This document shows, piece by piece, positions 3,087 to 18,659 of a stretch of DNA of 20,058 nucleotides. A program made the position numbers and the translations under genes. How positions within the stretch are numbered: position 1 is the stretch's first letter; every line of letters begins with the position of its first letter. The stretch is from a virus, in IMG/VR virus record IMGVR_UViG_3300044695_005329, positions 1-20,058 of that record; one strand, written 5' to 3'. Below the pieces are notes generated by a model. That model ran no database searches. It saw only the letters and a list, made by a program, of their open reading frames with translations, and was not told the DNA's origin.

Positions 3087-4277
3087 ATGCAGACAACGTG
3101 CTTGTTTCAATGGAACTCCGAACCAGAAAAGTATCGTAACGTTGATCCTAACAAAAAGATCATATGCGTAAACCAAGGCGGTACAAGCTCTGGAAAGACA
3201 TATGCGATAATGCAAGTTTTATTTGTATTGGCTATTAAGAATCCACGCTGGATCATTACGGTAGTTGGGCAAGATTATCCAAACTTAGCAAAAGGATCAA
3301 TCAGAGATAGTCAAAAGATAGTTGCCGATACCCCCTTTATACAAGCTTCAATTGAAGGAGACTTTAACAAAGGTAGCAAGTCTTACAATTTTAAAAACGG
3401 ATCAATCATTGAGTTCACGTCATACCAGACAGCACAAGACGCTAAGAACGGAAAGCGGCAAGTATTATTCGTGAATGAAGCAAACGGTATTCACTATGAC
3501 ATTTTTCATGAACTCGAAATGCGTACAGATCATAAAGTATTCATAGACTATAATCCAAACCAAGAATTTTGGGTGCATGATAGGGTCGTAGGACAGCCTA
3601 ATACAGCGTTTTTTATATCGAACTTTGAGCATAATTCATTCGTTTCTCCAAACATCGTAGAGGGCATATTGAGGCTCAAAAAGACGGATCCTCAACTATG
3701 GAGAGTTTACGGTCTGGGGCAAACTGGAAAGATAGAAGGGACGGTATTCGACTACAGAATAGTAGATGATCTCCCAGCGATCCTTGACAAAAGAGCCTAC
3801 GGCATGGACTTTGGTTTCACAAATGATCCGACTACGTTGGTGCTTTGTGGAATGTCGGACGGAATGATATACGGAAAGGAACTGATATACCAAACTGGTA
3901 TGACCAATAGAGACATAAACGCAATGTTGAAAGAGGTAGGAGTCAGAAAGTCAGATCAGATATTCGCAGACAGTGCGGATCCAAAAACAATTCAAGAACT
4001 GAAAATGTATGGCTGGAATATACTCCCAGCAGAAAAAGGGGCTGACAGTATCCCTTTCTCAATCAATCTAATTAAACAATACGGAAAAATAAACCTTACC
4101 AGAGACAGCATTAACTGGATCAAAGAAGGGCAGAATTATAAGTGGAAAGAAATGAGAGACGGAAGGAAGTTGCCAATACCAATCGATGCCTTCAACCACG
4201 CTTGGGACGCTTGCAGATATTGGGCGATCGGAGTTTTGAAAAAAGGCCAAAAAGGTAACATATTAGCTTACGGATAA
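3087..4277 (+). CDS. terL: Terminase large subunit
   Basis: The 396-residue protein is the ATP-driven DNA packaging motor and headful/cos nuclease. The N-terminal ATPase has a Walker A loop GGTSSGKT at residues 31-38 and a Walker B strand VLFVNE at about 126-131, with the glutamate as catalytic base; the IDYNPN motif follows near 153. The C-terminal RNase H-like nuclease starts with YGMDFGFTNDPT at about 238-249 (Asp241 as a likely metal ligand), continues with FADSADPKTI at about 293-302, and ends with the DAFNHAWDACRYW block near 367-379, where His371 and Asp374 are further candidate metal ligands. This pattern matches the PBSX/Terminase_3 group. Its length is a little below the usual 400-500 residues but both domains are complete. 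It follows ssb after 3 bases. Confidence 0.95.
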   Translation: MQTTCLFQWNSEPEKYRNVDPNKKIICVNQGGTSSGKTYAIMQVLFVLAIKNPRWIITVVGQDYPNLAKGSIRDSQKIVADTPFIQASIEGDFNKGSKSYNFKNGSIIEFTSYQTAQDAKNGKRQVLFVNEANGIHYDIFHELEMRTDHKVFIDYNPNQEFWVHDRVVGQPNTAFFISNFEHNSFVSPNIVEGILRLKKTDPQLWRVYGLGQTGKIEGTVFDYRIVDDLPAILDKRAYGMDFGFTNDPTTLVLCGMSDGMIYGKELIYQTGMTNRDINAMLKEVGVRKSDQIFADSADPKTIQELKMYGWNILPAEKGADSIPFSINLIKQYGKINLTRDSINWIKEGQNYKWKEMRDGRKLPIPIDAFNHAWDACRYWAIGVLKKGQKGNILAYG

Positions 4278-4307
4278 TTTATTTTTAAATATTAAAATTT
4301 TTCAATT

Positions 4308-4652
4308 ATGACAAATGATCAAAAAGAGATCGGAGCAAAATGGCTTGCTATTCTGAATGAATATAACAAGGACTTTGCAACCAAAAGTTTATTTAATCAA
4401 ACAGCTTTGTACCTACGAAGCTTAGGAACGGCTCCAGATAAAAGAGTATCAAGATTTAACAAAGAGGTCAAAGAGGAAAGCCAAAAGCAAAGATCTTTAC
4501 TTAAGCCTCTTTCATTACTCGAAGCGGCCAAACTGAGAGAAGAGCAAGAAGAGGATGAGCATGACTATCCTACAAATTTATTGGCGATCTCAGAGGGAGA
4601 TACGTATGACGGAATGAAAAAAGGTAAAGGTAAAGGTAAACAAAATGTATAA
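4308..4652 (+). CDS. Small charged protein, function unknown
   Basis: I do not recognise this 114-residue hydrophilic protein. It starts with MTNDQKEIGAKWLAILNEYN, is helical in outlook, and becomes very charged: a basic stretch around SRFNKEVKEESQKQRS is followed by the acidic REEQEEDEHD and a lysine-glycine tail KKGKGKGK, encoded by three tandem AAAGGT units. A 30-base A/T-rich leader separates it from the large terminase, and its last 8 bases overlap the next gene, the putative tail assembly chaperone, suggesting translational coupling. Its position between the terminase and the tail genes suggests a structural or assembly role (for instance a head-tail or chaperone partner), but no sequence feature supports a specific one. 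Confidence 0.65.
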   Translation: MTNDQKEIGAKWLAILNEYNKDFATKSLFNQTALYLRSLGTAPDKRVSRFNKEVKEESQKQRSLLKPLSLLEAAKLREEQEEDEHDYPTNLLAISEGDTYDGMKKGKGKGKQNV

Positions 4653-5397
4653 ATTCATCAAATCGACTGGGGGTAGTTTCGCCTACCCCTCTTCACTCGC
4701 AGACATAACCTTAAAAGAGTATATCGACTACCTAAGTTTTGTAGACAATACAAAGCCAAAGGAGCTGAAAGATCTTGAGGATGCATCCATTCAATACCAA
4801 AGATCATTGGATGAGAAGGACAAAGCTACGTATGATAGTTTGGTTTCGAGTTTGACTGATGTAATCATGTACAGAAAAATATATCCTTTCTATGCGAGAG
4901 TGGTCGCTCACTTCGCTAAAGGTATAACAGAGCAAGAAATCTTAGGTGGCAAAAAACATGGAGACGGAATGAATTTAGGAAACTTGCAACATCTTTATAA
5001 TCTGATCGTGCAGATTTTAATTGATCCAGAGGAACCCGAATATACCCCAATTTTACATGTCGATAATGAGCTTTGGTATCTACCGCAAAGATTCATGGAG
5101 AAGTCCAAACTGATTGAATACGCAGAGGCCTCTCAGTTTGAAGCTAACTTACAAGATCTGGAGAATGGCAACCTATTAGCCTTACCAAAGATCATGTGCG
5201 TGTTAGTAAGGAAAGAGGGCGAAATGTATTCAGATAAATTGCTCAAAAGAGAAGAGATATTCAATAACTGGAGCCTCGAAAACTGTTTTAAGGTAGGTTT
5301 TTTTTTGCTGAAACGAAGCGAAATATCTATACTAAGTTTAACGGCCTATACGGCAGCGCAGGATTTGACGAGATTAAGGCTGGAGTCGAACAACTAA
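4645..5397 (+). CDS. Putative tail assembly chaperone, short (G-like) form
   Basis: The zero-frame product is 250 residues. The core (about residues 15-220) is mixed helical, with a segment LALPKIMCVLVRKEGEMY followed by LLKREEIFNNWSLENCFKVGFF. That pattern (a Leu-Pro-containing helix, charged hairpin, then a phenylalanine pair) resembles tail assembly chaperones, which bind the tape measure protein and recruit tube subunits. The last 30 residues after the T run are unlike the rest (LLKRSEISILSL...). They are replaced by 91 residues if ribosomes slip back one base at 5298-5304. That arrangement mirrors the gpG/gpGT pair of lambda-like tails. A 7-bp hairpin lies just inside the 5' end. Function rests on the frameshift architecture and weak sequence resemblance. 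In many phages this gene directly precedes the tape measure; here six genes intervene. Confidence 0.65.
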   Translation: MYKFIKSTGGSFAYPSSLADITLKEYIDYLSFVDNTKPKELKDLEDASIQYQRSLDEKDKATYDSLVSSLTDVIMYRKIYPFYARVVAHFAKGITEQEILGGKKHGDGMNLGNLQHLYNLIVQILIDPEEPEYTPILHVDNELWYLPQRFMEKSKLIEYAEASQFEANLQDLENGNLLALPKIMCVLVRKEGEMYSDKLLKREEIFNNWSLENCFKVGFFLLKRSEISILSLTAYTAAQDLTRLRLESNN

Positions 5398-5579
5398 ATG
5401 CAAATTATGGCTGGTACCTCACATTGAAAAATATTGCCGAAAGTGGTATCTTTAACCGTCCAGACTTGACACCTCTACAAAGTGCAGAACAAGCGGATCT
5501 ATATGAGGCCTTTACCTATCTTTCAGCTTGTAAGGCTCAATCAGACTTTCAGAAAAAATTATATGATACAAAAAAATGA
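4645..5579 (+). CDS. Putative tail assembly chaperone, frameshifted (GT-like) fusion
   Basis: Reading 4645-5304 and then re-reading base 5304 in the -1 frame gives a 311-residue fusion: 220 residues shared with the short form plus 91 more ending at TGA 5577-5579. The extension reads like real protein (FFFAETKRNIYTKFNGLYG, NANYGWYLTLKNIAESGIF, DLYEAFTYLSACKAQSDF) and contains no methionine, so it has no ATG of its own. It fills an otherwise unexplained 178-base gap, and its stop overlaps the next gene's ATG as ATGA, the same arrangement used elsewhere in this operon. By analogy with lambda gpGT, the T-like extension would bind tail tube subunits while the G part binds the tape measure. A one-base deletion in the T run could produce the same layout. 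Confidence 0.72.
4669..4690 (+). promoter_or_regulatory. Hairpin inside the 5' end of the chaperone gene
   Basis: GGGGTAG at 4670-4676 and CTACCCC at 4683-4689 form a perfect 7-bp stem with loop TTTCGC, extended by a G·T pair. It lies about 25 bases after the ATG at 4645. No T run follows, so it is not an intrinsic terminator. It may slow or regulate translation of the chaperone gene; this is inference. Confidence 0.45.
5298..5307 (+). promoter_or_regulatory. Putative -1 ribosomal frameshift site (T9 run)
   Basis: Nine consecutive T residues (5298-5306) are read in the zero frame as G-GT TTT TTT TTG, giving the slippery heptamers T-TTT-TTT and T-TTT-TTG (X-XXY-YYZ form). A -1 slip moves the ribosome into a frame that is open from 5292 to the TGA at 5577-5579. 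I see no strong downstream stem-loop or pseudoknot by eye; only a 3-bp GCT/AGC stem follows. Confidence 0.7.
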
Positions 5580-5776
5580 GAAAATTAAAAAATCGTACAA
5601 AAGTGAGGATAAGACCTAATACATTATTAAGCTCAATAATAATTTTATGCAGTATCTTTGGAACGGCCGCGCTAACAATTACAATAATTGTAGGTCATGT
5701 CTGGATCAAAGCATTGAGCGCAGTGATTATTTTTTTTCTTGGCTGGACGGCCGCAAAATTCCATGAAAGAATATGA
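5576..5776 (+). CDS. Small membrane protein with two predicted helices
   Basis: This 66-residue protein has a basic N-terminus (MRKLKNRTKVRIRPN) and two hydrophobic segments, about residues 17-41 (around SIIILCSIFGTAALTITIIV) and 43-58 (around IKALSAVIIFFLGWTAA), ending in the short polar tail KFHERI. The positive N-terminus predicts an N-in, C-in hairpin. Its ATG overlaps the stop of the frameshifted chaperone as ATGA, and its own TGA overlaps the next ATG, so it is translated as part of the tail operon. Size and topology would suit a holin-like or tail-associated membrane protein, but no lysin gene is nearby and I do not recognise the family. Confidence 0.6.
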   Translation: MRKLKNRTKVRIRPNTLLSSIIILCSIFGTAALTITIIVGHVWIKALSAVIIFFLGWTAAKFHERI

Positions 5777-6351
5777 ATATATTACAAGTAGTTAACCTAT
5801 TCAATCAGATTTGTCTGGGCATCAACGCAAGTTCTCCAGATAGGATAGGTTTTTTTCATTACGGCTGGTATTCAGATATCAATGCGAATATTCAAAACAA
5901 CTGGACTGGGGCAAATGAGATCGGTAGAAAGTACCCAGCCGTTCAACTGATGTATCCAATCTCTACGGTAGAGATAAAAGAGAAAAGCGTCAAAGGATCA
6001 GTTAAGTGCAGAATGATCGTTTCTAAGCAACAATATTATGGGAATGACTCTCAATATGTCAATGAGACAATACTCGAAGCACAGAGCGATCTGGAGGCTC
6101 TTGCGGTAACAATATTGAGCGAATATAATAGGATCTCAAGGCTACCTCAATATCATATGCAGACTGGGATCCAAAACCCGATAACAATTGACTACCTTAG
6201 TGACGCTCACAACGAAAACTTGGTGCTGTTAGATATTCAGTTTAGTATATGGTACGTCTGGGAATGCCCAACTATAAGCTCTGATATACTTAGTTTGGCC
6301 GCTCCATTTAATCTTCTACCCCCAGCAACAACGGATCTCGAAAAGGAATAA
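5773..6351 (+). CDS. Putative head-tail joining or tail terminator protein
   Basis: I do not recognise a named family for this 192-residue protein. It is mixed alpha/beta, opening with MNILQVVNLFNQICLGI and a strand-rich part around GFFHYGWYSDINANI and YPAVQLMYPISTVEI. Further strands lie around GSVKCRMIVSKQQYYG and LDIQFSIWYVW. The segment IKEKSVKGSVKC to YNRISRL includes one likely helix (EAQSDLEALAVTILSEYNRI). A short N-terminal helix followed by beta strands, small size and location immediately before a gp10-like protein fit head-tail connection or tail terminator proteins, which are placed here in many phages. The gene overlaps its upstream neighbour by 4 bases (ATGA) and is 1 base from the next. 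Function is inferred from position only. Confidence 0.5.
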   Translation: MNILQVVNLFNQICLGINASSPDRIGFFHYGWYSDINANIQNNWTGANEIGRKYPAVQLMYPISTVEIKEKSVKGSVKCRMIVSKQQYYGNDSQYVNETILEAQSDLEALAVTILSEYNRISRLPQYHMQTGIQNPITIDYLSDAHNENLVLLDIQFSIWYVWECPTISSDILSLAAPFNLLPPATTDLEKE

Positions 6352-6352
6352 A

Positions 6353-6898
6353 ATGGCAGACGCTCAAAACATATACGAACAACTTGGAAGAGATATTGGA
6401 GAAGTTGTAAAGGATGCGGTCAAAGAAGCTTTTAGGATTCAAGGCAGATCTTTGACTGGGGCTCTGATCAATTCAATTGATTACAATGTTACCAGCACAT
6501 TTGATTCAACAAAGATTGAATTTAGTCTACTCGAATATGGAATGATCTTAAACTATGGAGTAACGCCAGATCGAATACCCTATTCCAGAGGGAGCGGTGC
6601 CAAAGGGAGCAAATATATTGACGGATTGAAGGCCTATGCAAAATTAAGGTTTTCGGTAAATGATAAGACGGCTCTCCAGATAGCTTTTGCGATCGCTAAC
6701 AAACATAAAAAGTATGGGATGCCGCTGGACGGTAAGACTGGGGCGGTCAATGAAGGCATTGAAAATTCAAAGAAAGAAGTTACTCAATTGATCGACGATG
6801 CATTCTCAGAGCTTATAAGAATTATTTTTGTAGAGCCATTTGCTGAAATCCAAAAGAAAGGGAGCGATTCATTAAAAATTAAATACGTACAAATATGA
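6353..6898 (+). CDS. HK97 gp10-like head-tail connector or tail completion protein
   Basis: The 181-residue protein has a long N-terminal helix (NIYEQLGRDIGEVVKDAVKE). It is followed by GRSLTGALINSIDYNV, strands with FSLLEYGMILNYGV, and a helix with LQIAFAIANKHKKYGMP. The order (helix, the S/T-G-x-L-x-x-S-I segment, a beta sheet, then helix) and the final amphipathic helix (KEVTQLIDDAFSELIRIIF) match the HK97 gp10-like group of phage proteins, which complete the tail end that joins the head. The gene starts 1 base after the previous stop and its end overlaps the next start by 4 bases. The assignment is by pattern and position and is moderately confident. Confidence 0.6.
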   Translation: MADAQNIYEQLGRDIGEVVKDAVKEAFRIQGRSLTGALINSIDYNVTSTFDSTKIEFSLLEYGMILNYGVTPDRIPYSRGSGAKGSKYIDGLKAYAKLRFSVNDKTALQIAFAIANKHKKYGMPLDGKTGAVNEGIENSKKEVTQLIDDAFSELIRIIFVEPFAEIQKKGSDSLKIKYVQI

Positions 6899-7215
6899 CA
6901 ATTGAACAAGCTACAAAATTAGCACAAACGCTCAATAACAACTTAAAAGAAACTGGAGCAGATACCTTAGTGGTTTATAATGTTTTTGCATATTGGAGTT
7001 CCAACTATGAAAAGCAATATAACGTAATAATGTATCCTAAAATTCATGATGGAAAGTATGAGACAGCAGACTACTCTCAAAAGTTAGCCTTTGCAAGAGT
7101 CTCAATCAAAGCTCAATTGAAGGCCTCAAAAACATACGAAGGTTTTAATAGTGACTTTGAAGAGCAGACAGATATGGATCCAGAATTAAGCAACTATTTT
7201 AAAAAAAATAACTAA
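6895..7215 (+). CDS. Small phage structural-operon protein, function unknown
   Basis: This 106-residue soluble protein begins MTIEQATKLAQTLNNNLKE (a likely helix), continues with two strands around TLVVYNVFAYW and YNVIMYPKI, and has a helical, acidic C-terminus (NSDFEEQTDMDPELSNYF). I do not recognise it. It overlaps both neighbours (ATGA at the start, one base shared with the next ATG at the end), so it is translated with the head-tail connector and the large tail protein. It may be a small tail component or chaperone, but no motif supports this. Confidence 0.6.
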   Translation: MTIEQATKLAQTLNNNLKETGADTLVVYNVFAYWSSNYEKQYNVIMYPKIHDGKYETADYSQKLAFARVSIKAQLKASKTYEGFNSDFEEQTDMDPELSNYFKKNN

Positions 7216-8456
7216 TGCCATTAGTCACAGCACCTTTCTTTGCTTTAAATTCGCAATATAGGCCAAACAGATTTGTGGTCTCAATGACAAGTGCCGCGCC
7301 TCTGGTATTAGCACAAGCCTCAATAGTCATTGATTTTTTAGGAGTTACAAGCATATCGAAAAGTCCTATTTATAGCATAGGAACTACCTATTATTTTGAG
7401 TTCGACGTATCCAAAGTCCTACAAACATATTCAGCTCCGAAGAGCAATGCCAAAACGTCTGTATTCCCAGACACGCTGGATCAGCCATTGAACGTATCAA
7501 ATACTGATATTCATACCAAAGTGGCTCTGATCATATCATATTTTTACAATGATCCGACTACTGGACTTTTAACGCAGTTCGGTTCAACTGAGATCATTCC
7601 AACTGATTACCCAGCAATCGCTGGAACCAGACAAACAAGGAATTGGCAATTCATGGGCATGGATCTATATATACAAATATTTGGGGGTGGTTCTCCTTTC
7701 TTGACTAATGCACCAATAATTTATGAGATATGTCAAACTGAAAACGCTTACTTAACATTTATAGGATATACGGCAACGACGGTAAAGGTCACGACAAAAG
7801 ATAGCTCTGGATCTGTAATCGATACTGGATTGTTTACAGTCACTCCGAACTCAGATTTTGTACCGACTACGATCGGAACTGGATTGACAAACTTGGCTAC
7901 TCAGAGTTATTTTGACGGATCAGTAAACGTATTAGATCCAAACATATCAGTCTATGAGATACAAGTAGGCCAGTCTTTTTTATTGGGTAGTGTGTGGTCT
8001 TTTTTCCCTTTCTCAGAGATTAGGACTTATAAACTAATAAGCTGTTGCAATGAAAGATCGGTAAGGCTCCATTGGCTAAACAGATTAGGAGGTGCGGATG
8101 CTTACACATTTAGAAGCAAAAAAACAGTAACCCAAAAGATCAAAAGCGAATTAGCACAGAAGCCTCAAACATGGAACTATACTCTACCAGCGGCATCGAG
8201 TTATGATCGTGGCCTATTTAAGATTGCTCAAGATGTATCGATCCAATACGAAGCTGAAAGTGAATTTTATACGACCGCAGAAGGTTCTTGGATCTCAGAG
8301 CTTTTAAGTAGCCCAGAAGTTTACATGGAGACCAGCGACGGATTGATTGCCGTAGTTATAACAGATAGCGACATTACAATTTCAGAAAATGATGAGCTTC
8401 TAAGTGTTACAATAAGTTTTGTAGAGTCTAACAATATAAGCGTGCAACAAAATTAA
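7215..8456 (+). CDS. Putative tail or baseplate structural protein
   Basis: The 413-residue protein is strand-rich, threonine- and serine-rich and nearly free of long helices. It opens with MPLVTAPFFALNSQYRPNRF and YYFEFDVSKVLQTY, has a middle rich in short repeats of beta type (GYTATTVKVTTKDSSG), and ends with RLHWLNRLGGADAYTFRS, SWISELLSSPEVYME and a final strand pair. The W-(I)-x-E-L-L-x-S-P-E-V-Y segment and RLHWLNRLGG are ones I associate with structural proteins near the tail tip of Bacteroidota phages. It starts directly after the previous stop and is 2 bases before the larger 711-residue protein, which resembles a baseplate hub-type protein. A distal tail or baseplate role is likely but the family is not named here. 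Confidence 0.55.
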   Translation: MPLVTAPFFALNSQYRPNRFVVSMTSAAPLVLAQASIVIDFLGVTSISKSPIYSIGTTYYFEFDVSKVLQTYSAPKSNAKTSVFPDTLDQPLNVSNTDIHTKVALIISYFYNDPTTGLLTQFGSTEIIPTDYPAIAGTRQTRNWQFMGMDLYIQIFGGGSPFLTNAPIIYEICQTENAYLTFIGYTATTVKVTTKDSSGSVIDTGLFTVTPNSDFVPTTIGTGLTNLATQSYFDGSVNVLDPNISVYEIQVGQSFLLGSVWSFFPFSEIRTYKLISCCNERSVRLHWLNRLGGADAYTFRSKKTVTQKIKSELAQKPQTWNYTLPAASSYDRGLFKIAQDVSIQYEAESEFYTTAEGSWISELLSSPEVYMETSDGLIAVVITDSDITISENDELLSVTISFVESNNISVQQN

Positions 8457-8458
8457 AT

Positions 8459-10594
8459 ATGGCAGACATAAGAGTTATAATCGACGGAAAATTGGCAGAC
8501 CTACCCCCTCAAGGACTAAGTCTGCCTTTGACATATTCACTAAGAAGCAGAGAAGGCCTCACAATAAATACTGGGAGTCGATCTGAATACGCATTCGAAC
8601 TTCCAGCCACAAAGCAGAATAGCGATATTTTTAATATGTTTTATGAAGTTGGCGGTATAACAATTGTAGCCCAGTCATTCATGGACGCGAGTATCGAAGT
8701 AGACGGTCAGCCATTTTTCATAGGCAAGTGTCAACTACAAAGTGTCACTTTGAGACCAGATCTTTACGGCTGGGGCGGCAAGACTTATAAGGTCGCGTTC
8801 TACGGTAACAATTCAGACTGGGCGATTAGGTTAAAAAATACATTTTTGTATCAACTTGGATTTGGGACGCATCTTTATGAGAGAGATCAGATCCTTGTTT
8901 ACTGGGACTATACTTATCTCAATGACTATTTTAAGTATATTTTAATTAAGTGGAAAAACTGGAATGTATTCGGAGAAGTTGATACTCTTGAATCCACCCC
9001 AGCACTATTTATCGTACATGTATTAGACCGAATTTTTAACTCAATAGGATATACAGTAAATTCAGATTTTATAAGATCAGATTGGTTCTCAAAATTAGTC
9101 ATGCCGATACCAATAGGAGACCGAATCAATGATCCGCAATATGCCGTAGAATATTTGAACGTCGAGGTAAAGGATACAATCATTGATCCGAATGGGAACT
9201 ACTGGCCAGTTGTATTTACTACGCAAACAGTCGCTCCAACGGTGGGCGCAAATCCTTATGACAATATGACTGGATTTTATACAGCACCAGTTACTGGATT
9301 TTATTTGTTCAATTTCACAATTGAAGTAGTGTCTACCGCTGGGGTTTGGCAAGCTGAAGGTGGCCTTGTGCAGAACGGTAGTTTCCCAGTCATAGTTGGA
9401 GCCACATATTTTTTCTTGCCGTTTGGTAGCTCTGGTAATTATTTATTGACAATTGAGAGCGATGTAATATTTTTGAATGCTGGAGAATTTATAGGATTAA
9501 AACTTTCTGCCGCTTGTACGGATCCTTCAACTTATTTCAATATAAGCATGTCTGTTACTGGAGAAGCAGAGATCATTGATAACATCAATTTGGACTTTAA
9601 ATACCTAATAAATAAACGCTGGTCTGCTCTCGATTTTATCAGAGGATTAGCACATGCTTTTAATCTTGTATTCGAAACCAATGAAGGCCAAAAAATTGTA
9701 TCAATTGAACCTGCAGACAAGTATCTTTTAGAAGATCGGTATCCAAATACAAGAGTCTTCAAAGACGGATTTTATGTCAATACAGAGGAGAAAACAGAAT
9801 ACGTAGATTTGATCAAAGGGGGCGAATTAGTCTCTGATACAAAACAAGACAGCGCAATAACTTTGACATGGAAGCCAGACAGTAGCGATCCTACTGTAGA
9901 GGCTATGAATGAGAACCAAAGCATAGGCCTTTTAAATGCAAAATATAATTTCAAAACTGATAGATTTGGTAATGATGAGGCAGTCATTGAAAATCCTTTT
10001 TTCGCACCAACGGTAACGATCATTGACAAAGAGATCATTGCTACTGGAAGCGTAAAGGAACCTATTATACCCATAATTTGGGCAGAGAATTATCTCGAAG
10101 TTTCCTCAAGTACAGAAAAAGTAATAGATGTCTTACCAAGAATTTTAATAACTGAGAGACTAAACTCTGCATTCAATGGTCTTATAAATGTAAGATTGAG
10201 TGGTGGCCTCTCGATCCAGCAAACGCCAATGGCTTATATGGTGGACTATAACGATACAGAGGGGTATCAAACATCTTTGAGCTTCTCAGATGAGTCCGTA
10301 AATCAGTTTACGATCTCTGGACTCATGAAAAGATTTTATTTATCAGAGCTGGTAAGACTTGAAAATGGAAAGAAGCTGGAAATTTTTATGCTCTGGGACG
10401 TTCTAATGTTGCAGAATTTGACATTCAGAAACAAATTGATCATAAACTCTGATACATTTATCTTGCAAGAAATTAACGCGTTCAATGTCTCAAAAAACGC
10501 CAGCACAAAGACTTTTTTACTTCATGACTATAAAGAGGTCAATGCAGAAGATCGGATCCAAAATACGCAAACACAATCAAAAGTAGCACTATAA
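8459..10594 (+). CDS. Putative baseplate/tail-tip protein with C1q-like insert
   Basis: The 711-residue protein starts with a beta-rich part (RVIIDGKLADLPPQGLSLPL, residues about 5-24; then TGSRSEYAFELPATKQN). It holds a hydrophobic strand-rich middle, and from about residue 240 to 370 a jelly-roll-like domain. That domain carries NPYDNMTGFYTAPVTGFY near 265-282, the beta-strand signature of C1q/TNF-like domains. After it the hub-like body resumes with the helix LDFIRGLAHAFNLVFETN (about 391-408), IEPADKYL, and ends in a helix-poor region (VLMLQNLTFRNKLIINSD). The two body parts flanking the C1q-like domain match my memory of tail-tip proteins of Bacteroidota phages. The tape measure gene follows 3 bases downstream. 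A host-contact role for the insert is inference. Confidence 0.55.
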   Translation: MADIRVIIDGKLADLPPQGLSLPLTYSLRSREGLTINTGSRSEYAFELPATKQNSDIFNMFYEVGGITIVAQSFMDASIEVDGQPFFIGKCQLQSVTLRPDLYGWGGKTYKVAFYGNNSDWAIRLKNTFLYQLGFGTHLYERDQILVYWDYTYLNDYFKYILIKWKNWNVFGEVDTLESTPALFIVHVLDRIFNSIGYTVNSDFIRSDWFSKLVMPIPIGDRINDPQYAVEYLNVEVKDTIIDPNGNYWPVVFTTQTVAPTVGANPYDNMTGFYTAPVTGFYLFNFTIEVVSTAGVWQAEGGLVQNGSFPVIVGATYFFLPFGSSGNYLLTIESDVIFLNAGEFIGLKLSAACTDPSTYFNISMSVTGEAEIIDNINLDFKYLINKRWSALDFIRGLAHAFNLVFETNEGQKIVSIEPADKYLLEDRYPNTRVFKDGFYVNTEEKTEYVDLIKGGELVSDTKQDSAITLTWKPDSSDPTVEAMNENQSIGLLNAKYNFKTDRFGNDEAVIENPFFAPTVTIIDKEIIATGSVKEPIIPIIWAENYLEVSSSTEKVIDVLPRILITERLNSAFNGLINVRLSGGLSIQQTPMAYMVDYNDTEGYQTSLSFSDESVNQFTISGLMKRFYLSELVRLENGKKLEIFMLWDVLMLQNLTFRNKLIINSDTFILQEINAFNVSKNASTKTFLLHDYKEVNAEDRIQNTQTQSKVAL

Positions 10595-10597
10595 GAT

Positions 10598-13500
10598 ATG
10601 GCAAACACAATAGTAGGTTTCACGATTGAGATCGACGGCATCCAATCAATCAATCAATTGAACGAAGGTATTAAGGATACCAAAAAGGCAATGAATGATC
10701 TTGACTTGAGTACCGAAGCTGGGCAAAAACAATTTGAGGAACTCTCTCAGACTTTGGGTAAAATGACTGCACAACAAAAGGCTTTGAGAAAAGCGCAAGA
10801 TGATGTAAACAAGTCATTCCTTCCAGAGAAAGCGATCGGAGCCTATGATAAGGCAAGTGCGGAACTAAACAAGCTCAGAAAGGAATTTAAGAATGCGGCT
10901 CTGGACGGCTCAAAAACGACCGCAGAATTAGATAAAATGCAAAAAGAGATCCAACAACTGGATCAGACATTAAAGAAGGTAGACGGCCAAGTAGGACAGT
11001 TCCAGCGCAATGTCGGTAATTATCCAAAAACATTCCAGAGAATTACGCGATCATTAAACCAAGCAATTCCAGGTTTTGAGGCATTTTCAAGCACCCTTAA
11101 AAATTCAGAGGGACGGCTTACGTCCTTTGGGGTTGCCCTTGTTGCTGGATTTGTGGCCTTTCAAGCTGCTAATTTGATCAATAGAGCTATTACTAATCTG
11201 GAAGAATTTAATAAAAAAGTCATTGAGACCAGAAATACCGTAATGGAATTTTCGGGACTTTATGGAGAAAGTCTGGATCGAGTATCAGCACAAACTACGG
11301 CTCTGGCCGAAACCTTTGGAACCGATGCAAAGACAATATCAGAGGCGGCCAAAGCATTAAGCAAACAACTTGGAATTGGATTTGAAGAGGCCATTACAAA
11401 ACTGGAGGGTGCATTAGTTGAAGGGAGAGGGAACGCAGACGATTATTTACAAAAGATCAAAGAGATGCCGTCTGCATTTGTTGAGGCTGGGGATAGTGTC
11501 TCAGAACTATCTGTAAACAATAGAAAACTACTTGAGTCGAACAAAACTCTTGCCGCGTCTCAGATCGATACGGCCAAAAGATCAAAGGAACTGGTAAGCT
11601 CTTTTAAGGAATTTAAAAACGCTGCTGGATCAGCATTGATCAATGTATTGTTAGCCTTATACGAAGCTTTTAAACCAATAGGAACTGCATTTTATAATCT
11701 GGGAAAGGCGGTATTTGGTTTTATAAATGCTTTAGTTTCTGTTTTCGCTCCAGCTGGTAGGACTACCAGTTTGTTAGATCTTTTAGCATCGGCAATACAG
11801 TTCCTTCTTTCTCCGATAACATTCTTAATTCAACTGACTACATCAATATACCAGACCATGACACGCTGGGCTCCAGTTATAGCTGCAGTATCGGTGGCCA
11901 TAGGAGTCTTCACAATAGCCATGAATGCGGCAAGAATAGCGGCAGCGTTCGCGGCCATAGCGCAAGGAGCTTACTCAGCGGCTCTGGGGGTTTATACTAC
12001 GGTAATCAATGTTGCTAAGGCGGCTCAACAAGCATTCAATAATGCTGTTAGATCGAATCCTTTGGGACTTGCATTGACTGGTATAATAGCGGCTGGGACA
12101 GCCATTGCTGCTTATACAGCGGTCACAGATGAGAGTACAGCAGCAATAGATGATCAAACAGAGGCGCAGAAAAGAGCAGAGGCCGAAATGAAAGCTAAAA
12201 TGGATCTTGAAGAAAAAGCTATTGCAGATAAAATGGAAAAGCAAAGACTTGAATTTGAAGAGCAAGCTAAAATTGAAGAGGCCAAAAGAAAAGCAGAAGA
12301 GGCTGCACAAGAATATCAAAGAAAAATCAATGAGAGAGTAGAAAAATTAACAAGTGAGCGCATAAGTTTTCTGGAGAAAGAAGTCGAGGCAACCAAAAAT
12401 GCTTTGTCAGTTATTGCCGATCTCAGAGCTAAATACATTGATGAGCAAATTAAAAACATCAAAGATTCCAGAGAGAGACAAATACGCGAGGTGGAAAGAG
12501 GTGCAGAAAAAGAAGCTTTGGCATTAGATGAGCAATTCAAAAAGTTTCAAGAGGATAATAAGAAAAGAGCTGCAGAAGCTGAAAAACAAGCAGAAGAGGC
12601 TCGTGCCTTATATGGTGCAAACTCTGAAAAAGCTAAAAAGATAGAAGCTGAAAACAAAGCTGCATTGGATCGAGCAAAAGAAGAGGAGACCAAAGTGGCC
12701 GCAGAAATATCTGCTATAAAAATTGAGATCACAAAAAGAACCAATACCGAAACTGATAAGCTAAACTCTGAATTTAGGCAAGAAGATCTGGATAAAGCCA
12801 TAGAAGCTGCAGAAAAATTAAGAGATTTTAGAAGAGATATACTTGAAGAGGAGCAAGACTACATTGAGATGAAATCTGAAATGAAGCTACTCAAAAACAG
12901 AGAGGCCACAAATAAGCTTCTTGCTCAAGAAAAGGATGCCACAAAAAGGCTTGCGATCATTGACGCGGCCGCTAAGCAAGAAGAGCTTATGAGAGAGCAA
13001 GAGATCCTTAACAAGATAATGTCATTGAATGATGCAGAGGCGCAAATTGTGGATGAAGAGGGGAACTTAAAAGTAGGATACAAGCAAGAGGAATATGATG
13101 CGATCCTTTTAGCCAGACAAAAACTTTATACGGAACTCTCAGAGATTGAAGAGAAACAAACAAGCGACGTAATCAAAAACTCGGACGATCAGTTGAAGGC
13201 AAGATTGAAGTCCGTAACAGATGTAATTAACCAGATTAAAGAGATCTCTGATTTATTCTTTCAAGCATTAGAGACAATAAATATGCGGCAAGAGGCTCAA
13301 CTTGAAGAGGCTCTGGAAAGATCCGCAGAAAGGCAACAAAACCTTCAAGAAGAGATTGATAATAGTAGCGGATTACGTAGGTTATATTTTGAACAACAAC
13401 TCGAAAGAGAGGTAGCTAATGCAGAAGCTTTGGAGAAAGCCAAAGAAGAGCTTGCCAAAAAAGCAGCAAAACAACAAAAAGCACAAGCTATTTTACAGTC

Positions 13501-14050
13501 GATCATAAACACTGCTTTGGCCGTAACGTCTGCTTTGGGGACGTTCCCAGCTCCAAATGTTGTTGCGGCACTTATAGCTGGAACACTCGGAGCTACGCAA
13601 ACTGCTTTGATCGCAGCGCAGCCTTTGGCCAAAGGTGGGGTAGTTGGAAAGGGACAAGAAATTGTTACCTTTGCCTCTGGGGGTAGAGTGACCAGTAGAG
13701 GCAACATTAAGCCGCTCTCGAATGGAGACAATGTGCTGGCTACTTTGAAGACTGGAGAGGTCGTATTAAATGAGAACCAACAGCGTAGAATTGGATACCA
13801 AACATTAAAGGCCGCTCAAATACCAAACTTTGCCTCTGGTGGCTTAGTGGGGGCTCCTACGGCATTTGTTAATGATCAAATATCTGCATTAAATGATGAG
13901 AAAAGTAGTTTCAATATGATGCAAAAAATGATCATTGAGACTCAGAGCAGAATTGATCGAATCCAAGTTGTCTATACGGCCGATACAGAGGACTCAGTAG
14001 ACAAAGCACGTCAAGAAAGAAAACAAATTAGAACAACTGCAGAATTTTAG
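10598..14050 (+). CDS. Tail tape measure protein
   Basis: This 1150-residue protein sets tail length and takes part in DNA entry. The N-terminal 170 residues are coiled-coil helices (SINQLNEGIKDTKKAMNDLD, then NKLRKEFKNA), with a typical GQFQRNVGNYPKTFQRI motif at about 132-149. Hydrophobic blocks follow at about 176-198, 345-412, 424-475 (alanine-rich) and 488-509; such blocks suit channel-forming tape measures. A very long charged coiled coil (about 515-960, many EAKRKAEEAAQE-type heptads) and a last hydrophobic segment (about 975-1015) precede the glycine-rich C-terminus (AKGGVVGKGQ, FASGGRV, LSNGDNVLATLKTGEVV, ASGGLVGAP), the usual end of these proteins. It is by far the longest gene here, as expected for a tape measure. 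Its 5' end is 3 bases after the tail-tip gene. Confidence 0.92.
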   Translation: MANTIVGFTIEIDGIQSINQLNEGIKDTKKAMNDLDLSTEAGQKQFEELSQTLGKMTAQQKALRKAQDDVNKSFLPEKAIGAYDKASAELNKLRKEFKNAALDGSKTTAELDKMQKEIQQLDQTLKKVDGQVGQFQRNVGNYPKTFQRITRSLNQAIPGFEAFSSTLKNSEGRLTSFGVALVAGFVAFQAANLINRAITNLEEFNKKVIETRNTVMEFSGLYGESLDRVSAQTTALAETFGTDAKTISEAAKALSKQLGIGFEEAITKLEGALVEGRGNADDYLQKIKEMPSAFVEAGDSVSELSVNNRKLLESNKTLAASQIDTAKRSKELVSSFKEFKNAAGSALINVLLALYEAFKPIGTAFYNLGKAVFGFINALVSVFAPAGRTTSLLDLLASAIQFLLSPITFLIQLTTSIYQTMTRWAPVIAAVSVAIGVFTIAMNAARIAAAFAAIAQGAYSAALGVYTTVINVAKAAQQAFNNAVRSNPLGLALTGIIAAGTAIAAYTAVTDESTAAIDDQTEAQKRAEAEMKAKMDLEEKAIADKMEKQRLEFEEQAKIEEAKRKAEEAAQEYQRKINERVEKLTSERISFLEKEVEATKNALSVIADLRAKYIDEQIKNIKDSRERQIREVERGAEKEALALDEQFKKFQEDNKKRAAEAEKQAEEARALYGANSEKAKKIEAENKAALDRAKEEETKVAAEISAIKIEITKRTNTETDKLNSEFRQEDLDKAIEAAEKLRDFRRDILEEEQDYIEMKSEMKLLKNREATNKLLAQEKDATKRLAIIDAAAKQEELMREQEILNKIMSLNDAEAQIVDEEGNLKVGYKQEEYDAILLARQKLYTELSEIEEKQTSDVIKNSDDQLKARLKSVTDVINQIKEISDLFFQALETINMRQEAQLEEALERSAERQQNLQEEIDNSSGLRRLYFEQQLEREVANAEALEKAKEELAKKAAKQQKAQAILQSIINTALAVTSALGTFPAPNVVAALIAGTLGATQTALIAAQPLAKGGVVGKGQEIVTFASGGRVTSRGNIKPLSNGDNVLATLKTGEVVLNENQQRRIGYQTLKAAQIPNFASGGLVGAPTAFVNDQISALNDEKSSFNMMQKMIIETQSRIDRIQVVYTADTEDSVDKARQERKQIRTTAEF

Positions 14051-14052
14051 AT

Positions 14053-14295
14053 ATGTATATAAGAGAAATACCAGAACAATACCGATCAGAGGCTAAACAG
14101 ATAATGATTAAGAACAATACGGTATTATTGATGCCCAGAGAGGATCTGGAAAGGCTATTCTACTTTTATTATAGGTATATCAAAGTACTTAGAAGAGGAG
14201 AGAAAGTAGAACCAATGATCAAAAAGGATTTAGGATGTATCGCTTGTAGGGGGAAAGTAATAATGTATTTCAAAAATAACTTTCAAGAATGGTAA
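14053..14295 (+). CDS. Small protein with CxxC pair, function unknown
   Basis: The 80-residue protein is basic and mostly helical (MYIREIPEQYRSEAKQIM, PREDLERLFYFYYRYIKVLR). It then has a short segment GCIACRGKVIMYF with two cysteines spaced C-x-x-C, which could bind a metal or form a disulfide, although a single pair is weak evidence. I do not recognise the family. It starts 2 bases after the tape measure stop and overlaps the next gene by 7 bases, so it belongs to the late operon. Confidence 0.5.
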   Translation: MYIREIPEQYRSEAKQIMIKNNTVLLMPREDLERLFYFYYRYIKVLRRGEKVEPMIKKDLGCIACRGKVIMYFKNNFQEW

Positions 14296-14648
14296 TCAAT
14301 TTAACCAGAGATCGAGTAAAGAACTCTCAGAAACTATTTTGCGTATTGGCCTCAAAAGAACTTGAGGAGTCGATCGGAGAAGTGCAGAACATTGAACATA
14401 TTGTTTCTTATTTTGTCATGCACAACATTATAAGACAGTCTATAATCAATCGATACGTAATCATAAAATTGTATCCAGAGTATATTGAGCGATTTGAAAA
14501 GAAAGATCGAGCAGTCAATGAGCTGAGTAAGATATTACCTCTGGAACCGACGGCAATTTATAATATTTTGTCGAACCACTACGCGTATTTTTTCCCTATG
14601 AAACTGGATTTTTTCAAGCCTACAGAGATCCAGACAAAAAAAAATTAA
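14289..14648 (+). CDS. Small protein, possible helix-turn-helix, function unknown
   Basis: The 119-residue protein is mainly helical. Its C-terminal half has a segment AVNELSKILPLEPTAIYNIL (about residues 76-95) that could fold as a helix-turn-helix, with the helix-turn at LPLEP, but the score cannot be judged by eye. The N-terminus reads MVINLTRDRVKNSQKLFCVL. It is the last gene before the promoter-bearing gap at 14649-14755 and overlaps its upstream neighbour by 7 bases. It may be a small DNA-binding regulator of the adjoining promoter, but that is only a guess from position and the weak motif. Confidence 0.45.
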   Translation: MVINLTRDRVKNSQKLFCVLASKELEESIGEVQNIEHIVSYFVMHNIIRQSIINRYVIIKLYPEYIERFEKKDRAVNELSKILPLEPTAIYNILSNHYAYFFPMKLDFFKPTEIQTKKN

Positions 14649-14679
14649 AAAATTTTAAAAAAAAGTCTCAAAAAGTTTT

Positions 14680-14707
14680 TTTGTATGAAATAATTGTCAT
14701 AGATTTG
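14680..14707 (+). promoter_or_regulatory. Bacteroidota-type promoter (TTTG, 16-nt spacer, TAGATTTG)
   Basis: A -33-like TTTG at 14680-14683 lies 16 bases before TAGATTTG (14700-14707), an exact match to the Bacteroidota -7 consensus TAnnTTTG. The spacer is slightly shorter than the usual 17-23 bases. The promoter stands in the 107-base non-coding gap before the 64-residue gene, and transcription would start about 40 bases before its ATG. Confidence 0.7.
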
Positions 14708-14713
14708 TGACAA
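14694..14713. promoter_or_regulatory. Operator-like inverted repeat over the -7 element
   Basis: TTGTCA (14694-14699) and TGACAA (14708-14713) are perfect inverted copies separated by exactly the 8-base -7 element TAGATTTG. A dimeric repressor bound here would block the promoter. TTTGTGACAA recurs at 16799-16808 after the second promoter, but there the left arm is missing. Confidence 0.55.
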
Positions 14714-14755
14714 CAAAGAACGAAAGGAAATTTAAAACAATCAAAAATTATCAGT

Positions 14756-14950
14756 ATGGAAACTTTAAGAATCGGATCATTAGTAAAATTCATGGCAGAC
14801 AATGAAATTTGGATTGTGACCTCAATCCAGCCAAACAGAAACAGAGTTTTTTTAAAGCCTTATTGTGAGGCGGCCAAAAAAGCTAACACAAGATTCAATA
14901 TCACTTTTGATATTTTTCTTTTAGAAAAGCAAGTAACAATAATTGATTAA
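14756..14950 (+). CDS. Small protein with SH3-like outlook, function unknown
   Basis: This 64-residue protein reads METLRIGSLVKFMADNEIWI, with strands VTSIQ and RVFLKPY, a helix-like KKANTRFN stretch and a final strand FLLEKQVTIID. Alternating strands of this kind suggest a small beta-barrel (SH3/KOW-like), but nothing confirms it. It is the first gene after the operator-covered promoter and shares a transcription unit with the 200-residue gene, 20 bases downstream. I do not recognise it; candidate roles include a small regulator or anti-host factor. Confidence 0.5.
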   Translation: METLRIGSLVKFMADNEIWIVTSIQPNRNRVFLKPYCEAAKKANTRFNITFDIFLLEKQVTIID

Positions 14951-14970
14951 CATTTTAAATTTTTAACCGT

Positions 14971-15573
14971 ATGAAGAGTATTATCAATGAGGATCGCTGG
15001 ATCCCAGCTAACATGACCGAAACCAACGTAGATACAACTGTTAAGACAGAGGTATTCTGGGACGCAGAATCAATGACAGCAATGTTTTTTCTGGGCAAAG
15101 CAAGAAAACCTATCTATTATGTTAGGTATAAATCCGTAGAGTCAATGGAGAAAACAATTATTGACTGGGTGTTGCAAGTTTGGAATAACCACCAAAGCAA
15201 GATCGCGGCAAAACAAAAAAGAGCAGAGGCGCAGAGAAGCTTCAATATCAATGATCACTTTGAGGTAGGAGATATTGTATATAACTCTTGGGGCTATGAG
15301 CAAACCAATATTCAGTATTATAAGGTTCTCGAAATGACTGATCATTTTATTAAGGTGCAAGAGTTATATTTGGAAACTGTAGAAGGATCTGAGTATTCTC
15401 ATGGAATGGCAGACGAAGTGGTTCCCAGCACAACATTTGTAGAAGGATCGCAACCATTTAGGCTCAAAGTGAAAGCAAATTCCGACGGTAGCGCAATGAT
15501 TTGTAATCCAGAGTCCTTTTATTATTTTTCGAAGTGGGACGGCAGACCGAAGTATAGAAGCTGGTATTATTAA
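14971..15573 (+). CDS. Conserved phage/plasmid protein with YNSWGYEQTN motif
   Basis: The 200-residue protein has an N-terminal part with FWDAESMTAMFF and PIYYVRYKSVESMEKTI, then a charged linker (AAKQKRAEAQRSF, about 79-91). A second part contains FEVGDIVYNSWGYEQTNI at about 97-114, followed by YYKVLEMTDHFIKVQEL. I recall the G-D-x-x-Y-x-S-W-G-Y-x-Q-T-N motif from small proteins of plasmids and phages whose function is unknown. The C-terminus ends with FYYFSKWDGRPKYRSWYY. The gene is followed 16 bases later by an intrinsic terminator, closing a two-gene transcription unit that begins at the 14.7-kb promoter. Its leader TTTTTAACCGTATG is A/T-rich with no Shine-Dalgarno. Confidence 0.6.
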   Translation: MKSIINEDRWIPANMTETNVDTTVKTEVFWDAESMTAMFFLGKARKPIYYVRYKSVESMEKTIIDWVLQVWNNHQSKIAAKQKRAEAQRSFNINDHFEVGDIVYNSWGYEQTNIQYYKVLEMTDHFIKVQELYLETVEGSEYSHGMADEVVPSTTFVEGSQPFRLKVKANSDGSAMICNPESFYYFSKWDGRPKYRSWYY

Positions 15574-15589
15574 AATATGATCAATGACT

Positions 15590-15618
15590 GGGGGGTATTA
15601 TGTATCCCCCTATTTTTT
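15590..15618 (+). terminator. Intrinsic terminator after the two-gene unit
   Basis: GGGGGGTA (15590-15597) pairs with TATCCCCC (15603-15610), an 8-bp stem including one G·T pair, with loop TTATG. T-A-TTTTTT follows directly (15611-15618). It sits 16 bases after the stop at 15571-15573. Confidence 0.75.
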
Positions 15619-15639
15619 AAAATTTTAAAACCGTATGTT

Positions 15640-16179
15640 ATGTTAGAATTGATAGTAGGAAAATCGGCCGCATCTAAGATCCTTAAAAGCGGCATAAATG
15701 TATTGACGGCCTCTGACTCTGATCTGGAGTATATAGCTGGTAAAAACGCGGCTCAGAAGCTCAAGGCGGCAAAGACAATCATGTATCCAACGGCAGAAGT
15801 TAAGACAATCAGATCCAGCAGCGACGCGGCTGAAATTTTGTATCCGTATCTCATGAACTTGGATCATGAAAAGTTTTATGTATTAGCTATGAGTAACAAT
15901 AACTCTGTAATTGACGTAATCAAAATAAGTGAGGGCGGCCTAACGGCAACAATTGTGGATCCTCGAATATTGTTTAAGCGTCTTTTGATCTCTGGGGCAA
16001 GCGGCTATATTTTAGCACACAATCACCCCAGCGGCAATATAAATCCGTCCAGAGAGGATCGAGAGCTTACCAGTAGATTGAAAGAGGGCGGCAATATTTT
16101 AAATTTAAGATGTTTAGATCATGTAATCATAGGCTGGAATAAAGAGTATTATTCATTTTTGGATAATTCAGATCTGTAA
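15640..16179 (+). CDS. RadC-like JAB/MPN domain protein
   Basis: I choose the ATG at 15640 (179 residues, MLELIVGKSAAS...) because the longer in-frame start at 15577 lies before the terminator stem and would encode it. The protein has a short helical N-terminal part (up to about residue 55) and a JAMM/JAB domain from about 58 on, in which HNHPSGNINPSRED (about 127-140) supplies the His-x-His-x10-Asp zinc ligands; it ends with RCLDHVIIGWNKEYYSFLD. This is the RadC family (about 220 residues in bacteria, so it is shorter at the N-terminus). RadC was named for a repair phenotype but its role is not settled; related proteins are common on phages and mobile elements, often near anti-restriction genes. 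It follows a terminator and precedes the SSB-tail gene. Confidence 0.88.
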   Translation: MLELIVGKSAASKILKSGINVLTASDSDLEYIAGKNAAQKLKAAKTIMYPTAEVKTIRSSSDAAEILYPYLMNLDHEKFYVLAMSNNNSVIDVIKISEGGLTATIVDPRILFKRLLISGASGYILAHNHPSGNINPSREDRELTSRLKEGGNILNLRCLDHVIIGWNKEYYSFLDNSDL

Positions 16180-16205
16180 TTTTTTTAACCTTAAAAATCA
16201 ATATC

Positions 16206-16643
16206 ATGTATAAGTTTTGTATGTATTATGATCCGAGAACTGGAGAACTGATTGAGCAATGTTTTGTAAAAGTCATAGAATTAACTCATGAAAAATCGGC
16301 CGTAAAAAGAGCATTAGTTGAGTATAAGCCTCCAGTCAAAAGCATAAGTTTTTATAAACCGAGAGCGAAGCTTGTAGAACCTTTGATGTATAATTCAGAT
16401 TTAAGATTTGTATTGTTTTATAATATGAGAGAGTTTATAATTGAAGCAAAAGCAATATTTTATAAGCATCCAGATCAAAAATTCATAGACAAAAGCACAC
16501 CGTATATAATCAATGAGTTAAAATGTAATGGATCCGAAAAAAGTATGGAAGAGCTACAAAAAATAATAGGAGCACCGCAGCATATAATTGATCGGGAGCT
16601 TCAAGATAAACTACTGGACTATGTAGATGAGCTACCTTTTTAA
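16206..16643 (+). CDS. Unknown protein with an SSB-type C-terminal tip
   Basis: The 145-residue protein is lysine-rich with a strand-rich N-terminal half (MYKFCMYYDPRTGELIEQCF, FYKPRAKLVEPLMYNS) and a helical C-terminal half (EELQKIIGAPQHIIDREL). It ends in DYVDELPF, an acidic tail with the Asp/Glu-x-Pro-Phe tip typical of SSB proteins; compare NEDLPF at the end of ssb in this window. No OB-fold is visible. The tip could let the protein recruit or compete for SSB partners such as helicases, RecO or primase; that is inference. It follows RadC after 26 bases and is the last gene before the parS-like sites and terminator. Confidence 0.6.
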   Translation: MYKFCMYYDPRTGELIEQCFVKVIELTHEKSAVKRALVEYKPPVKSISFYKPRAKLVEPLMYNSDLRFVLFYNMREFIIEAKAIFYKHPDQKFIDKSTPYIINELKCNGSEKSMEELQKIIGAPQHIIDRELQDKLLDYVDELPF

Positions 16644-16652
16644 AGCATTTAA

Positions 16653-16668
16653 TGTTCCACGTGGAACG
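16653..16668. promoter_or_regulatory. parS-like site 1
   Basis: TGTTCCACGTGGAACG contains a perfect 14-bp palindrome (16654-16667). It matches 15 of 16 bases of the chromosomal parS variant TGTTCCACGTGGAACA, the binding site for ParB in the ParABS partition system. It lies 10 bases after the last gene stop, in a 227-base gene-free region. Confidence 0.75.
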
Positions 16669-16706
16669 TAAAAAAAATAAATTACACTAAGTGTTAGTTA
16701 AAAAAT

Positions 16707-16722
16707 TATTCCACGTGGAACC
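16707..16722. promoter_or_regulatory. parS-like site 2
   Basis: TATTCCACGTGGAACC contains a 12-bp palindrome (16709-16720) and matches 14 of 16 bases of the same parS variant. Its centre is 54 bases from that of site 1 (about five helical turns). The stretch between is A/T-rich and holds a weak inverted repeat (ACTAA-GTG-TTAGT, 16686-16698). Confidence 0.7.
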
Positions 16723-16726
16723 GTAT

Positions 16727-16755
16727 AGGCCTCTCAGATCGAGAGGCTTTTTTTT
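16727..16755 (+). terminator. Strong intrinsic terminator before the head module
   Basis: GCCTCTC (16729-16735) pairs perfectly with GAGAGGC (16741-16747) around loop AGATC, extended by G·T and A-T pairs, followed by eight T residues (16748-16755). It ends the transcript carrying the RadC-like and SSB-tail genes. It starts 5 bases after parS-like site 2. Confidence 0.88.
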
Positions 16756-16794
16756 GTTTTTAAAATATCGTTACAATGTGAGTAAACCGCTGTA

Positions 16795-16802
16795 TATATT
16801 TG
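16795..16802 (+). promoter_or_regulatory. Probable promoter -7 element for the head module
   Basis: TATATTTG matches TAnnTTTG exactly and lies 68 bases before the protease ATG, just after the terminator. The -33 region about 20 bases upstream is TTAC, a poor match to TTTG, so this promoter may be weak or need an activator. The following TGACAA repeats the sequence after the 14.7-kb -7 element. The rest of 16803-16870 holds no other recognisable signal. Confidence 0.55.
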
Positions 16803-16870
16803 TGACAAATTAAGATCATGTATCATTCAGATCTCAAAGGGGTATATATTTAGCAATCTAATATCGTAAA

Positions 16871-17848: not shown

Positions 17849-17853
17849 TACAA

Positions 17854-18630: not shown

Positions 18631-18659
18631 TTATCTAATCAAAAACAAAAAATAAAAAT

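Follow-up and report, generated by a model that had tools for sequence, protein, structure and literature searches.

A conserved run of nine T residues and a probable two-product gene beside the terminase of an uncultured Bacteroidota-type phage

Two reading frames meet at a nine-T run

A gene directly downstream of the terminase large subunit gene in an uncultured tailed phage of Bacteroidota type carries a run of nine T residues (T9), beyond which the -1 frame remains open past the end of the 0 frame. We asked if this gene encodes one protein or two, what kind of slippage would join the frames, and what the product might do. The sequence analysed, referred to here as the window, is a 20,058-base IMG/VR virus record. 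A first-pass annotation, made from the letters of the window, had proposed a programmed -1 frameshift in a putative tail assembly chaperone with the layout of lambda gpG/gpGT. The features relevant to this proposal are:

3087..4277, + strand: terminase large subunit (PHROG terminase large subunit, E 1.1e-29)
4308..4652, + strand: small upstream gene, 114 aa (ORF list; homologue in relative G002)
4645..5397, + strand: 0-frame ORF, short product of 250 aa, "G-like" (ORF list; relatives; AlphaFold model, pLDDT 86)
5292..5579, + strand: open stretch of the -1 frame, C-terminal extension without an ATG, TGA at 5577-5579 (sequence; relatives at 29-78% identity)
5298..5306, + strand: T9 slippery run, GGT TTT TTT TTG, then G5307 (sequence; 40/40 non-redundant relatives)
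5307..5397, + strand: dual-coding overlap of the 0-frame tail (~30 codons) and the start of the extension (variation lowered in both frames)
5576..5776, + strand: next gene, 66 aa, probably a membrane protein (ORF list)
10598..14050, + strand: tape measure protein, 1150 aa (PHROG tape measure families, best E 1.7e-13)
16871-17848: head maturation protease
18660-19649: probable capsid protein

The gene order is unusual (window 3087-19649; L149 2459-3859), running from the terminase through the slippage gene, a neck-like gene, two large hub-like genes and the tape measure gene to the protease and capsid genes, and in relative G002 the portal gene comes after the capsid gene. The window also contains auxiliary genes for PAPS reductase-like (41-850), ParB-like (834-1496) and RadC-like DNA repair (15577-16179) proteins.

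Direct inspection of the sequence located two slippery heptamers in the 0-frame phase, T_TTT_TTT (5298-5304) and T_TTT_TTG (5301-5307). The small upstream gene (4308..4652) overlaps the start of the slippage gene at 4645. The -1 frame is open over 5292-5576, contains no ATG and ends at the TGA at 5577-5579, which overlaps the ATG of the next gene at 5576 (ATGA); the gap between the end of the 0-frame ORF and that gene (5398-5575) is 178 bases. Six ORFs lie between the slippage gene and the tape measure gene. The layout is as the first-pass annotation had described it, with figures that were right within 1-2 codons, and a -1 shift shortly before the 0-frame ORF ends would yield two products with a common N-terminus.

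Relatives were gathered with the whole 0-frame protein, with the extension and with a profile of each, and removal of near-duplicates left 40 non-redundant sequences, in which the 0-frame part is 16-66% identical. An open, homologous -1 extension of 82-121 codons is present in 40/40, at 29-78% identity. The first-pass annotation had named the run length in relatives as a check on its proposal: T is invariant at all nine positions in all 40, and the run is never shorter than T9. The base after the run is G in 39/40, the exception having T, and one relative (L091) has T10 owing to GTT as the preceding codon. The same results were obtained with a 0-frame profile (A2) that holds nothing past the junction FFL and whose search patterns lie upstream of the site; T9 is present in every recovered contig that spans the site, and the extension is open in these relatives, with one contig (L131) ending within the extension and another (L147) before the site. 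For nearly all preceding codons (GGT, GCT, TCT, GTT) the first T of the run is a synonymous third codon position. In these genomes ~25% of the codons for Gly, Ala and Ser end in T, and Phe is encoded by TTT at a frequency of 0.67, giving a chance expectation for T9 of ~0.11 per independent lineage. Judged against codon usage, conservation of T9 is not due to chance, and homologues with a conserved ORF layout retain a run of at least nine A or T residues. The refuting outcomes stated with the first-pass annotation were looked for in the relatives and not seen: no relative lacks the extension, and none has a tenth T that joins the frames into one, although one sister group of cultured phages is fused and lacks T9.

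Substitution patterns among ten close relatives indicate that both frames are coding. Third-position substitution is 0.55 for the 0 frame upstream and 0.53 for the -1 frame in the extension, and in the overlap it is lowered in both frames, to 0.24 and 0.30; the codon-position pattern follows the 0 frame up to the run and the -1 frame after it. The 0-frame stop falls 30-33 codons past the run in 75% of relatives compared with 29% in simulations, and never before codon 25. By this stop-position measure alone, constraint on the tail of the short product appears modest, because, when the extension is recoded synonymously, a stop ahead of codon 25 is predicted in only 25% of cases. As far as can be read from the sequences, there is strong support for a conserved, programmed switch to the -1 frame, by which ~90 residues are added.

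Split and continuous versions in cultured phages

A tblastn search of the window proteins against cultured phages gave no match. The 0-frame part and the extension were folded separately, and the link to cultured phages came via structure: the 0-frame model (pLDDT 86), run against a viral structure library, gave hits at E about 1e-3 to 2e-3 to uncharacterised proteins from Flavobacterium phage 6H and Nonlabens phage P12024S. In P12024S and P12024L (L225) the gene comes after the terminase, T9 is present, and the product of the open -1 frame resembles the extension. The P12024S gene occupies 23136-23830 (L217) with T9 at 23578-23586 and U_UUU_UUU in phase; in both phages the run begins at a different codon position yet still comprises nine T. 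The deposited annotation divides this gene into P12024S_38 and P12024S_39, which, on the sequence, are probably one gene joined at T9, and we correct the annotation to that effect.

Other cultured phages encode a single ORF of 259-301 aa without T9. These are Flavobacterium phages FPSV-F7, 2A and laban6-1, Cellulophaga phage Ingeline_1, Polaribacter phage Leef_1 and a Microcystis phage, and in most of them FF sits at the junction or close to it. By hhalign, the fused window family matches this continuous group at E 1.2e-7 and a probability of 94%, with an alignment that crosses the junction; in one of the 14 rows of the fused-family profile (L104), the frame-shifting code had translated a few residues wrongly. 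Separate comparisons with the 0-frame part (E 1.5e-7) and with the extension (E 3.5e-6) both agree with the fused result. Ingeline and Leef are siphoviruses (PMC8776804), and the Ingeline homologue is separated from the tape measure gene by two genes. From these comparisons the long form is a complete protein in other phages and the short form is not universally needed, because sister phages encode the fused protein as one ORF.

Possible single-frame homologues occur in gut Bacteroides phages MT836763 and BS-TP3 (gp55), which have a protein of ~180 aa in the syntenic place (L155 3900-4460; L159 2402-2938), with weak collinear profile similarity to the family (E 0.0024, probability 12%). The annotation of BS-TP3 gp55 as a "TrkA-N domain protein" looks wrong. 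A scan of a genome collection returned a single match, contig L148, binned in a Richelia (cyanobacterial) MAG, possibly misbinned and uninformative on the host.

The homologue in Flavobacterium phage 6H (L218 10352-10927, minus strand) is broken at the junction, but the gene is intact in FPSV-F7 and 2A, which are close relatives of 6H. This break, and the single ORF in the cultured Duneviridae and the Microcystis phage, would fit a gene that has decayed or was wrongly sequenced or assembled, its true form being one continuous frame. Against such a reading, T9 and both frames are kept in >40 assemblies and two cultured phages, and both frames are constrained in the overlap, making it very improbable; sequencing error as such was ruled out by conservation across relatives. 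We consider the long product to be real biology and not a sequencing error, from the conservation of T9 and the extension in relatives, the frame-switched substitution pattern, the split gene of P12024S and P12024L and the single-ORF homologues.

Slippage by the polymerase or by the ribosome

The best explanation overall, and one that we hold to be somewhat probable, is a two-product gene with polymerase slippage on T9 whose pair of products acts in tail assembly. The gene at 4645-5579 would give rise to two proteins with a common N-terminus. The majority of mRNAs, with U9, would direct synthesis of the 250-aa short form. RNA polymerase slipping on T9 would produce a fraction of transcripts with one U extra (or two fewer), and ordinary translation of these would give a long form of ~311 aa ending in the -1 frame extension. 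Alternatively, tRNAs could slip back on U_UUU_UUU and/or U_UUU_UUG in programmed -1 ribosomal frameshifting, as in lambda gpG/gpGT. The two routes give nearly identical long products. In our judgement transcriptional slippage is moderately probable and is favoured over the ribosomal route, which is possible at lower probability, because no RNA structure was found, long runs are avoided without avoidance of T6N, and relatives carry a second run, T10. We infer that the polymerase slips instead of the ribosome.

No RNA structure was found downstream of the run in the 40 relatives (mean z -0.06 to -0.43, for folds free of pseudoknots), which argues against ribosomal frameshifting with a stimulatory structure. 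Stimulators are, however, absent from some known -1 frameshift sites.

Run avoidance is a test for transcriptional slippage used by Baranov et al. (PMC1088944), and runs were surveyed here in 286 other genes of ten related genomes. Runs of at least nine A (0 observed, 13.3 expected) and T8 runs (0 observed, 8.0 expected) are missing, and this long-run avoidance is independent of phase, as transcriptional slippage would predict. For T runs of at least nine, two are listed compared with 2.3 expected, numbers too small to show avoidance alone; the exclusion filter had let through the slippage gene of G008, which accounts for one of them, and the other lies at codon 12 of an ORF. In-phase heptamers are commoner than expected (T6N, 83 compared with 67.6; A6N, 164 compared with 139) and so are not avoided in the other genes of these phages, which counts against the ribosomal route.

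Nine T residues allow efficient transcriptional slippage in bacteria and are used in this way in Thermus dnaX (PMC5009743). Consistent with such slippage, the whole run is conserved and not merely a heptamer, including its first T, a synonymous third position in the codon ahead; T5298 is invariant though T_TTT_TTG alone does not require it; and P12024S retains nine T despite its different starting codon position. Several observations point the other way. The avoidance of long runs could stem from replication indels instead of transcription. X_XXY_YYZ heptamers are in phase, both T_TTT_TTT and T_TTT_TTG in the window and U_UUU_UUU in cultured P12024S. The G after the run is kept in 39/40, though polymerase slippage does not require it. 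Elsewhere, in-frame counts of T7 for the -1 phase fall slightly short of expectation (23 compared with 30.4), and the openness of the 0-frame tail is only modestly above the prediction from the -1 protein. In addition, the ribosome brings about the lambda-type G/GT frameshift, which is widely conserved among phages with long tails (PMC5009743). Of the programmed -1 frameshift in the first-pass annotation, the conserved frame transition adding ~90 residues is strongly supported; as to mechanism, transcriptional slippage fits at least as well as the ribosomal route.

The run-length survey also exposed a T10 in relatives, where a gene lying downstream of the portal gene carries it at codon 81-82. 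In 43/43 loci (22 non-redundant; L174-L216) the run is exactly ten T long and keeps one phase; in L174 it lies about 240-250 bases past the gene start at 2001. One of the six search patterns was a FFFELSGG or FFFEVAGG stretch, so that sampling was partly biased to the peptide, not to its codons. The product (312-575 aa) joins an N-terminal domain of ~85 aa, which is conserved, to a C-terminal part that varies. It weakly matches a tail fibre family (E 0.0012) and a ConA-like lectin domain, the latter at a score short of Pfam's cut-off (E 2.7e-4). After T10 the -1 frame meets an immediate stop, TGA, or TAA in L185, which has K in place of E in the 0 frame; in the +1 frame the printed sequences show TAA or TAG two codons further on. 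Slippage at T10 in either direction would therefore truncate the product to its N-terminal domain. The T10 gene is present in 4/9 larger genomes compared, at a position that would fall beyond the end of the window, and the site was not found in P12024S or BS-TP3. Tentatively, this lineage of Bacteroidota-type siphophages may use polymerase slippage as a general virion-assembly device, T9 extending a tail-assembly protein and T10, in many members, truncating a surface fibre to its N-terminal anchor. If true, two protein ratios would be set without ribosomal recoding.

Role of the protein and comparison with known systems

Neither the G part nor the extension matched Pfam, PHROG or PDB sequences. 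In the PDB library, the match of the 0-frame model to the HK97 chaperone gp13 (2ob9_A) was insignificant (E 5.6, probability 0.14, TM (target) 0.39), and one viral structure-library match is named tail assembly chaperone, at E 0.87. In Flavobacterium phage FPSV-S2, which has a gene annotated "tail assembly chaperone", a comparable -1 extension was not seen. The slippage gene is located inside the tail module, but it adjoins the terminase and does not lie between the major tail protein and the tape measure. A role as a tail assembly chaperone is plausible from position and the two-product design but not established, and we describe the protein as chaperone-like and not as a proven member of the lambda-type family. 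The gpG/gpGT layout proposed in the first-pass annotation thus stands as a two-product arrangement, whereas its chaperone assignment lacks a family match and the gene directly follows the terminase.

The frame switch could also be real in a protein that is some other tail or neck morphogenesis factor, a reading compatible with either slippage mechanism and one to which we give roughly one chance in three. The sequence searches without a match and the distance from the tape measure gene suit it, as do sister phages that encode the long form only, which means that a fixed short:long ratio is not universal. Its weight is reduced by the gene's place in the tail module, by the homologue two genes ahead of the tape measure gene in siphophage Ingeline and, at an insignificant score, by the structural match to 2ob9. 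We infer that the pair acts in tail assembly.

The G/GT frameshift is textbook programmed ribosomal frameshifting in tailed phages, with the slippery site G_GGA_AAG in lambda. Like lambda gpG/gpGT, the window gene combines a shared N-terminus with a -1 C-terminal extension that begins near the end of the first ORF and has no start of its own, and it belongs to the tail region of a phage whose tape measure protein is long. Unlike lambda gpG/gpGT, it shows no detectable sequence relation, has T9 as its site, is placed after the terminase with six genes between it and the tape measure, has sister phages with one continuous ORF, and probably depends on polymerase slippage. The invariant T9 in a large uncultured group, the lack of detected structure and the second T10 suggest that the same two-product outcome may arise by polymerase slippage.

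Thermus thermophilus dnaX likewise has exactly nine T in the coding strand and makes two products from one gene (PMC5009743). Slippage in dnaX, however, leads to a truncated product (PMC1088944), whereas slippage in the window would lead to an extended one, and dnaX is resembled more closely by the second site of the relatives, T10, than by T9.

The nearest families are PHROG 25418 and PHROG 32199 (FPSV-F7, Ingeline_1; P12024S_38), both annotated as unknown function. The window family is homologous to the continuous group by hhalign and shares T9 and split frames with P12024S; the members of PHROG 25418 examined differ in being single ORFs without T9. We conclude from these sequences that the programmed frame transition is real and conserved, in a protein family without an assigned function. 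With P12024S and P12024L carrying the T9 version and Ingeline and the Flavobacterium phages the continuous one, both how the switch works and whether the short form is needed are directly testable.
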